Shown here piece by piece: positions 33,431-36,283 of a stretch of DNA of 64,000 bases (position 1 is the first letter of the stretch; each line of letters starts with the position of its first letter). Source of the DNA: Vulcanimicrobiota bacterium (GTDB lineage: Bacteria > Vulcanimicrobiota > Vulcanimicrobiia > Vulcanimicrobiales > Vulcanimicrobiaceae); contig DAHUZB010000007.1 in the NCBI GenBank assembly GCA_027306785.1, forward strand, positions 1 to 64,000, written 5' to 3'. The position numbers and the translations under genes are program-made. Under the pieces are notes generated by a model. It saw only the letters and a list, made by a program, of their open reading frames with translations. It had not been told where the DNA came from and searched no databases.

Positions 33431-36283
33431 CTAAGCGGACGCCTGCCCTCGCACGACCGACGCGCATTCGGCGCAGATCGACGGATGCTCCGCGTCGCTT
33501 CCGAGGGTGCGGAACTTCCAGCAGCGTCGGCATTTTTCGCCGTGCGCGGACACGATGTCGAGCACGGCCGCATCGGCTTCGAGCGCCGACGATTCGACGA
33601 GTTCGCACTGCGAGGCCACGAGCGCTTCGCGCAAGTTGTCACCCAGATGCGCGAGACGCTTGAACAATGCCGCTCCGGCCTCGATGCGCACCTTCGCTTC
33701 GAAATCGCGCACGTTCGCGCCGCCCGCGACTTGCGCGCGCAGCGATCGCAGCTCTTCCCACAACGCGAGATCGGCCGATAACGCTTTGCGATCGATCGAT
33801 TCGGCGGCGAACGACGAATCGAAGACGCTCGTTTCGTCGCCGCGCAACGCGGTCGGAATCTCCTGCCACGCCTCTTCCGCGGTAAACGAGAGCACCGGCG
33901 CGGCCGCGGTGAGGAAGCGCTTGAGCGCGTAGAGCAGCGCCGATTGCGCGCTCCGGCGCCGCGCGTCGTTCTCCGCCCGCGAATAGAGCGGGTCTTTCAG
34001 CGCGTCGAAGTAGAGGCTGGACATCGTGCCCTCGAACTCCACGATGCGCAGATACGCTCCGTGAATGTCGTAACGATCGTAGAGCGCCTTCACGTCGGCG
34101 ACGAACGCGTCGACCACGCTGCACGCGAGCGCATCGAGCGGCTGCAGCGCCTCGCGCGCGACCACGTCGGCGGCGCCGAGATCGTCGAGGTTCGAGAGCA
34201 TGAAGCGGATGCGGTTGCGCACGTTACGATAGACGCGGCCGACCTGTTCCACCACGTTCGGTCCGAAGCGCACGTCGTCCACGAACTCGACCGACGCCGC
34301 CCACAGGCGCAGCACGTCGGCACCCCATTTCTCCATCGCGTCTTTCGCGTCGATGCCGTTGCCCTTGGACTTCGACATCGGACGGCCGTGCTCGTCGTTC
34401 ACCCAACCGTTTTTCACGACGCGCTTGTACGGCGCGGCATTCTTCACCGCGACGGCGGTCACGATCGAACTGCGGAACCAGCCGCGATACTGATCGCCGC
34501 CTTCGAGCACGAGATCGCTCGGCCACGGCAGACCGTCGTGCCCGAGCACCGCGAAGTGCGTCACGCCCGACTCGAACCAGATATCGACGATGTTCTTCTC
34601 TTTATCGAACGCCTGCTTGCCGCACGTCGGACACGCGAACCCGTCCGGAAGATACGTCTCGACCGGATCGCTCCACCACACGCTCGCGCCGACCTCGGCA
34701 AAACGTTTCGCCGCCTTGCGCGCGACCTGCGGATCGAGCACCGATTCGCCGCATCCCGCGCAGACGAGCGCCGGAATCGGCGTGCCCCAGGTGCGCTGAC
34801 GCGAGATGCACCATTCGGGATGATTCTCGAGCATCTGCTTCAGACGCGTCTCGCCCCATTCCGGATCGTACGCGACGCTCTCCGCCGCTTCGATCGCGCG
34901 CGCGCGCAGACGGTTTTGATCCATCGCGATGAACCACTGCGCGGTCGCGCGGAAGATCACCGGATTGTGGCAGCGCCAGCAATGCGGATACGAGTGCTCG
35001 TACTCGTGCGCGCGCCAGAGCATCCCGCTCGCGCGCAAATCTTCGACGATCTGCTTGTTCGCCTTGAAGATGAACTGCCCGGCGTACGGCCCCGCCTCGT
35101 CGGTAAAGTGGCCCGACGCGTTCACCGGGTTGAGGATCGGCAGATCGTACTTCATGCCGGTCTCGAAATCGTCGGCGCCGTGACCGGGAGCCGTGTGCAC
35201 CGCACCGGTGCCGGTCTCCAGATCCACATAGTCGGCGAGCACGATCGCCGAGTCGCGATCGAGGAACGGATGACGCGCCGCGAGTCCGTCGAGAGCCTCG
35301 CCCGTCGTCGTGGCAAGCAGCTTCGCGTCGGCGAAGCGATCGCCGAGCGCCGATTCCGCAAGCGCGGTCGCGAGCACGAGGCCCTCGCCGTCGATCTCGT
35401 ACAACCCGTACGTCGCATCCGCGCGCAGCGCGATCGCCACGTTCGCGGGCAGCGTCCACGGCGTCGTCGTCCAGATGAGGAATGACAGCCCCTTCGACAA
35501 GCTCAGGGTGACACTTGGGTCGCTCAGGGTGACACTGGGGGAGCTCTGCGTAGCACGCTCTGTGTCATGCTGAGCTTGTCGAAGCACGGCATATAACTTC
35601 TCGCGCTGCGCATCGCTGAACGGGAATCGGACGTAGATCGAGGGCGAGACTTTTTGTTCGTACTCGATCTCGGCTTCGGCGAGCGCGGTTTCGTCGTGCA
35701 CGCACCAGAGCGTCGAACGCAACCCCTTATAGATTTGCTGCTTCTCGGCGAGATCGGCGAGCGTCTCCACGATCGTCGCTTCGAACGAGGGATCGATCGT
35801 GCGATACGGCCGCTCGTAGCGGCCGAACGTGCCCATGCGCACGCGCGTGTCGCGCTGACGATCCAACCAATAGAGCGCGCGCTCCTTGCACTTCTCGCGC
35901 AGCTCCAGCGGGTCGATCGCGTGAAAATCTTTGATGCCGAGGTGCTTGAGCGTCTCGAGCTCGATCGGCAGCCCGTGCATGTCCCAACCGGGAACGAACT
36001 CCGCCCACTTGCCGTCGAGCAGCGCGATCTTCACGAACATGTCTTTGAGCACCATGTTCAGGAAGTGCCCCATGTGCAGCTCGCCGTTGGCATACGGGGG
36101 GCCGTCGTGCAGAATCCACGGGGCGTTGGCGCGATTACGCTCCAAGCGGCGCTCGTAGGTGCGCTCGTCGCGCCACCATGCCACGCGCGCGGGTTCGCGC
36201 TTGGGCAGCTCCGCCTTCATCGGGAAGGCGGTCTTGGGCAAACGAAGGGTGTCGCGATAGTCGCGTTCGGCAGTCTCGCTCAT
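33431..36283 (-). CDS. ileS: Isoleucyl-tRNA synthetase with a repeat-derived insert in the editing domain
   Basis: A 950-residue class I synthetase charging tRNA-Ile. Catalytic signatures: HDGPPYANGELHMGHFLN (HIGH motif as HMGH), WCISRQRTWGTPIP, and GRPMSKSKGN (KMSKS loop as PMSKS). The CP1 editing domain holds IWTTTPWTLPAN. The C-terminal zinc finger (CRRCWKF...CAEC) is present. Between SPSIYVRFPFSD and IWTTTPW, residues about 233-266 are encoded by three repeat copies; this is normally a short variable loop. Start ATG 36283 overlaps the csaB stop (ATGA). It ends the DUF5693-csaB-ileS unit. Confidence 0.97.
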   Translation of the reverse strand: MSETAERDYRDTLRLPKTAFPMKAELPKREPARVAWWRDERTYERRLERNRANAPWILHDGPPYANGELHMGHFLNMVLKDMFVKIALLDGKWAEFVPGWDMHGLPIELETLKHLGIKDFHAIDPLELREKCKERALYWLDRQRDTRVRMGTFGRYERPYRTIDPSFEATIVETLADLAEKQQIYKGLRSTLWCVHDETALAEAEIEYEQKVSPSIYVRFPFSDAQREKLYAVLRQAQHDTERATQSSPSVTLSDPSVTLSLSKGLSFLIWTTTPWTLPANVAIALRADATYGLYEIDGEGLVLATALAESALGDRFADAKLLATTTGEALDGLAARHPFLDRDSAIVLADYVDLETGTGAVHTAPGHGADDFETGMKYDLPILNPVNASGHFTDEAGPYAGQFIFKANKQIVEDLRASGMLWRAHEYEHSYPHCWRCHNPVIFRATAQWFIAMDQNRLRARAIEAAESVAYDPEWGETRLKQMLENHPEWCISRQRTWGTPIPALVCAGCGESVLDPQVARKAAKRFAEVGASVWWSDPVETYLPDGFACPTCGKQAFDKEKNIVDIWFESGVTHFAVLGHDGLPWPSDLVLEGGDQYRGWFRSSIVTAVAVKNAAPYKRVVKNGWVNDEHGRPMSKSKGNGIDAKDAMEKWGADVLRLWAASVEFVDDVRFGPNVVEQVGRVYRNVRNRIRFMLSNLDDLGAADVVAREALQPLDALACSVVDAFVADVKALYDRYDIHGAYLRIVEFEGTMSSLYFDALKDPLYSRAENDARRRSAQSALLYALKRFLTAAAPVLSFTAEEAWQEIPTALRGDETSVFDSSFAAESIDRKALSADLALWEELRSLRAQVAGGANVRDFEAKVRIEAGAALFKRLAHLGDNLREALVASQCELVESSALEADAAVLDIVSAHGEKCRRCWKFRTLGSDAEHPSICAECASVVRGQASA
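35489..35588. repeat. Dispersed repeat cluster inserted in frame inside ileS
   Basis: Three units: CCCCTTCGACAAGCTCAGG plus GTGACAC at 35489-35514, a partial GCTCAGGGTGACAC at 35522-35535, and an opposite-facing TGTGTCATGCTGAGCTTGTC plus GAAGCAC at 35561-35587. They match the intergenic arrays and keep the ileS frame open, adding residues such as SVTLSLSKGLSFL. Confidence 0.9.

Follow-up and report, generated by a model that had tools for sequence, protein, structure and literature searches.

REPs are usually regarded as extragenic. The CGTC-tagged REP superfamily, defined by Di Nocera, De Gregorio and Rocco in 2013 (PMC3733652), is characterised by an unpaired CGTC or TGTC/CCTC tag, a stem of 8-9 bp beginning with A-T, a loop of 4-5 nt and a short unpaired tail that is mostly, though not always, CCA. 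Intragenic members are described there for several species, including copies in DNA-repair genes (uvrA) and in tRNA synthetase genes; the sole same-site case in the portion of that report drawn on here concerns two species of Xanthomonas, in which the gene is recB. Rickettsia palindromic elements (RPEs; Ogata 2000, 2002), as described in PMC10969869 and PMC3733652, are a second precedent, and RPE-4 and RPE-6 are classed as CGTC REPs in the latter.

The window analysed here is a 64,000-nucleotide stretch on contig C25 of a 3.14-Mb genome (G000; 96% complete, 35 contigs). A sequence-only reading had placed three copies of a short repeat in frame in the editing domain of isoleucyl-tRNA synthetase, and had identified them with intergenic arrays at 11.5 and 15.4 kb. 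The reading frame was indeed open and the synthetase complete, with a match to TIGR00392 (766 bits against a cut-off of 621, NCBIfam) and matches to the Pfam tRNA-synt_1 and anticodon-binding domains. Identity with both arrays was also confirmed, and the chance expectation of repeat matches within the window was 0.00. The count of three needed qualification: the block consisted of an inverted pair of the 23-26-nt repeat with one truncated tandem copy, that is, two full copies and one partial one (Table 1). It ended 5 residues short of W271 in the WTTTPWTLP editing motif. The addition of about 34 residues was likewise only partly borne out, as the block comprised 33 residues while the net growth of the loop was ~22.

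Table 1. Coordinates of the repeat-bearing genes, the repeat copies within them and the intergenic arrays in the window.
Feature	Coordinates	Strand	Basis or remark
ileS, isoleucyl-tRNA synthetase, 950 aa, intact	33431..36283	-	TIGR00392 equivalog; closest solved structures 8c9f/8c9e
REP-derived in-frame block, residues 233-265, VLRQAQHDTERATQSSPSVTLSDPSVTLSLSKG	35489..35587	-	Translation and loop length compared with relatives
ileS REP copy 1, exact against genome consensus	35491..35513	-	
ileS truncated REP copy, tandem to copy 1 with 21-nt period	35522..35542	-	Direct repeat D1
ileS REP copy 2, inverted, 2 mismatches, stem-compensatory (TGCT/AGCA)	35563..35585	+	
Intergenic array of the same REP (2 direct, 1 inverted)	11528..11621		
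Intergenic array of the same REP (2 direct, 1 inverted)	15362..15458		
gpmI, 2,3-BPG-independent phosphoglycerate mutase, REP in frame	9151..10698	+	TIGR01307, 620 bits, spanning the insert
In-frame REP and truncated tandem copy in gpmI, ALRQNQGDTQKAQGDT	9447..9489	-	Common to G001, empty in other genera

The repeat, TGTCAYCCTGAGCNTGTCGAAGGR, was dispersed through the window genome, where exact copies numbered 100 and near copies 166; a reversed control pattern gave 0. Alignment of 152 copies, taken from the window itself and from the surroundings of exact copies, gave the consensus TGTC-A-YCCT-GA-G-CNTGT-C-GA-AGGR. Position 6 covaried with position 24 (86 of the 152 copies had C-G and 45 had T-A; 0.52 bits), and positions 7-23, 8-22 and 9-21 were paired in 92-95% of copies; positions 5-25 paired in just 19%. 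Two G-A mismatches and one G-C pair closed a 5-nt loop. The tag bases T, G, T and C were present in 143, 149, 150 and 152 copies, respectively, in a collection that had required three of the four. In relatives the outer arms were kept and the inner stem was variable yet complementary, as in GTCACCCCGAGTAGGTGGCGAAGCCACCGTATCGAGGGG from G026. Its sequence marks the element as a small REP-like hairpin repeat; it is here called CGTC-type, with no numbered CGTC family assigned. The tag is TGTC in the window genome, and some ileS copies in relatives start with CGTC. The first stem A, the 5-nt-loop hairpin, the head-to-head pairs, the intragenic members and the absence of an associated transposase (here Y1_Tnp) also agree with the description in PMC3733652. 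The element differs in its stem, which runs from A and Y through four Watson-Crick pairs, formed in 92-95% of copies, to a single G-C pair and is interrupted before the latter by the two tandem G-A mismatches. It differs, too, in that tandem clusters are common, that the commonest bases after AGGR are C then G in place of a CCA tail, and that Eremiobacterota lie outside the host phyla given for CGTC repeats in that report.

Copy numbers in relatives ranged widely, with 176 in G001, 229 in G036 and 1 in G002. Close matches to the repeat were also found on plasmids of Sinorhizobium, Rhizobium and Sphingobium, mostly outside annotated genes. An Rfam search over the window returned one tRNA and nothing else. 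A further core-like copy, GTCATTCTGAG, lay at 22361-22371 of the window in an intergenic position, a short way upstream of the ORF spanning 21756-22331. On contig C30 of the window genome (133 kb), the region from ~27 to 104 kb (L165-L168) held ~20 of the 100 exact copies, all in one orientation; orientations on the other contigs were mixed.

Presence and absence among relatives suggest that the repeat is mobile, as the sequence-only reading had proposed, but no mobilising enzyme was found to accompany it. A Y1_Tnp search, positive in control genomes, detected no Y1 (RAYT) transposase in the window genome or in 10 of 11 relatives, G001 and G036 included. Y1 fragments were found in one genome, G022, and these, with the general likeness to REPs, would favour a Y1 (RAYT-like) transposase as the means of spread, as is thought for GTAG REPs. 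However, Y1_Tnp is missing from the very genomes that are richest in copies, and CGTC REPs have been reported without a dedicated transposase (PMC3733652); this route is unlikely. The GTAG REP/RAYT system, whose members are likewise small dispersed intergenic hairpins, often in inverted pairs, was rejected because the consensus has no GTAG tag and no RAYT gene was found. Bacterial MITEs with in-frame fusions (PMC10969869) are also non-autonomous repeats that contribute coding sequence, but the present repeat is far shorter and no insertion-sequence parent was seen.

A search of coding frames across the genome, a check that the same reading had suggested, showed about ten other genes to be affected. 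In-frame copies were present in gpmI, mfd, trmFO, kbl, a fadB-like gene, uvrA, gcvPB, prfC, a probable GT9 glycosyltransferase gene and, at the C-terminus, fabD; the list is a lower bound, compiled from stretches around the 100 exact copies. All repeat-bearing genes had NCBIfam matches except the GT9 gene, for which no family reached threshold, and the fadB-like match lay below cut-offs. Most insertion sites were shared with G001, of the same genus, although the tandem tails differed. In G002 the sites carried decayed remnants or none, and in G008, of another genus, they were empty. The G001 gpmI had a longer insert at the same site, ending CVTLSLSKGR. In other genera, REPs that were checked at the DNA level occupied the same positions of mfd (G027, G036), uvrA (G035) and trmFO (G032). 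Two sequences, in G022 uvrA and G008 mfd, had a REP-like translation without a REP-like DNA sequence and were left out of this count.

The comparison with RPEs, made in the sequence-only reading together with the remark that the element was a different one, proved apt. In both cases palindromic repeats occupy in-frame positions in many housekeeping genes that are unrelated to one another, where they are tolerated and probably translated. The element described here, which is not classed as an RPE, is shorter, at ~26 nt against ~150 nt for RPEs (PMC10969869), and occurs in another phylum; moreover, different repeats here use the same site again and again.

A simple codon score gave a coding signal on both flanks for just 18 of the 74 repeat clusters, and some of these signals were weak. 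Repeats in genes are thus far less frequent than would be expected if they were placed at random in a genome that is mostly coding. Within genes, the spacing of tandem half-units was 18 or 21 nt and was divisible by three in 9 of 9 cases, compared with 26 of 84 outside genes. This spacing fits a block that is translated with its frame kept. The repeat itself is open in four of six frames, so that it would simply be translated once inserted. Conversely, the block might remain untranslated, through RNA-level removal or ribosome bypass, leaving an IleRS loop of normal length. A long hairpin could form from the inverted pair, but the frame was open in nearly every resolved loop and the invariable 3n spacing would be unneeded under bypass. 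We consider this explanation very improbable.

The ileS loop was compared across Candidatus Eremiobacterota, to which the named relatives belong; nearly all are metagenome assemblies and all are draft, and genomes under our own G handles that duplicated named ones were removed by sequence. REP-type sequence was found in 24 of 81 resolved ileS loops, measured from F220 to W271. The loop spanned 26-33 residues (median 28) in the 57 repeat-free genes and 29-55 residues (median 40) in the 24 repeat-bearing ones. Assignment to the repeat group was made by eye from protein and DNA, and a core count served as the objective measure: the exact 11-base core GTCAYYCYGAG occurred in 16 of 87 ileS loops against a shuffled-loop expectation of 0.045, and the density of the REP core in the loop was 101-fold that in the remaining gene. 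One gene, L085, had the exact core but a loop of normal length, and was taken as chance or remnant. In the window genome the loop measured 50 residues, 33 of them repeat-derived, which implies that ~11 residues of the ancestral loop are gone. In L096 a REP was present with no net growth (29 residues). Together these two cases indicate that the old loop was partly deleted or overwritten.

The repeats filling the loop differed in kind, frame and strand, and encoded peptides such as VTLSLSKG, VMLSLSKHD, LRQAQHDT, RHPEVLAEGE, CHPERSAEG, STPLRSARDD and SSRAKSRDG, among others. On an ileS tree built without the loop, REP presence changed at least 13 times and kind changed 21 times. With 25 repeat-bearing rows there were 14 changes, 11 of which were forced by well-supported branches; the tree was a quick one and the changes include both gains and losses, so that parsimony sets a bound on how many insertions occurred. 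Among genomes of the family, ileS REPs occurred in 8 of 16 that were REP-rich (20 or more matches) and in 0 of 18 or 1 of 19 that were REP-poor, the single case being the decayed insert of G002 (p = 0.0007-0.005). The loop REP of G032 was of the same kind as the REP dispersed in that genome. REP-rich genomes with no REP in ileS also occurred (G012, G026, G036). A comparison of REP density on the contigs around ileS was set aside, since the loop copy itself had been counted. Related genera thus apparently acquired different repeats in the same IleRS loop, repeatedly and independently. The idea that the insert might be peculiar to one lineage was thereby contradicted. Relatives with unrelated inserts, which the sequence-only reading had named as grounds for refutation, do exist, but their inserts are other dispersed repeats; this strengthens the case for a mobile element, and the notion of one special peptide was dropped.

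The element type and its in-frame insertion are already known in kind, and the new part is recurrent colonisation of one loop by different REPs. PMC3733652, in the portion drawn on here, gives no multi-genus filling of one loop, though its tRNA synthetase cases may include this one. Neither such filling nor its counterparts in mfd, uvrA and trmFO were found in the literature searched, a body that excludes most subscription papers. Searches with the repeat sequence returned unrelated papers, and searches for Eremiobacterota with palindromic repeats returned none.

In two relatives the assembly was interrupted at or near the ileS loop, by a contig end in G001 (L033/L034; start of C7, and C144) and by a run of N in G033 (L036; C88), and a repeat array there could have caused these breaks. 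Such interruptions, in genomes assembled from metagenomes, might be taken to mean that the inserts arose by misassembly or faulty binning. This is scarcely credible, as the flanks are unique and the frame intact, the insertion is also present in the independently assembled G001, and similar inserts occur in ~20 further assemblies.

An AlphaFold2 model of the window IleRS, built with 30 homologues, had a mean pLDDT of 87.2 and agreed with the solved P. megaterium enzyme (8c9f) at a TM score of 0.84. In the model, a helix at residues 224-244 was followed by a low-confidence linker at 247-258 (pLDDT < 50), and the editing strand began at residue 266. The matching stretch in solved IleRS is ~6 residues. 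Taken with the low-confidence linker, this suggests that the insert is probably a floppy surface extension. Its position directly before the editing-site strand, and its recurrence at one place, might nevertheless point to a selected functional module that tunes, for instance, IleRS editing or tRNA binding. The prevalence of a single frame, LRQAQ[DG]DT, among in-frame copies of the window genome could similarly reflect some peptide preference. However, unrelated peptides in several frames and both orientations occupy the same loop, the insert is decayed in G002 and missing from most relatives, and the same peptide is found in unrelated enzymes. Selection for a module is therefore quite unlikely, and the repeat-derived peptide is most likely functionless.

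The best reading of these data, and one we hold with considerable confidence, is that CGTC-type REP hairpins are tolerated in permissive loops and translated there. A small, selfish REP hairpin would spread through Eremiobacterota genomes, and selection would purge it from most coding sequence. It would survive in a variable surface loop where the frame stays open and the length is divisible by three. The loop before the IleRS editing motif would be one such permissive site, filled at least ~10 times by various kinds of REP. There, the inserted block would displace part of the former loop, grow or shrink by tandem duplication of its 18-21-nt end, and decay by point mutation, as in G002. More tentatively, and with rather less than even confidence, we suggest that a hairpin repeat with no recognisable transposase keeps writing translated segments, which grow by tandem duplication and then decay, into the same few permissive loops of essential enzymes across the phylum, providing both a continuing supply of new protein sequence and a natural in-vivo map of insertion-tolerant sites. 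The essentiality of ileS, and of the other affected enzymes, is taken from their known roles.

On the preferred reading, that of tolerated and translated hairpins, REPs would here give rise, repeatedly and traceably, to protein sequence in essential enzymes, some surface loops acting as landing sites that turn stray DNA into protein sequence. Three stages (inserted, expanded and decayed) are visible within one genus, with independent same-site replicates across genera. Two questions become testable, namely by what route REPs that lack a transposase spread and whether peptides derived from repeats ever come to be useful. For annotation, housekeeping proteins may contain repeat-coded segments; for assembly, contigs may break inside essential genes.

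Two minor observations concern ileS outside the loop. REP-like in-frame sequence was seen in the editing domain at residue ~295-298 in L103 and L105 (ALRPAQGDTEA and SRHPEPVEGC), a region that is a possible second permissive site. In L055, a REP supplied the end of ileS, both its last residues (CHPEPVEG, at the C-terminus) and its stop codon.
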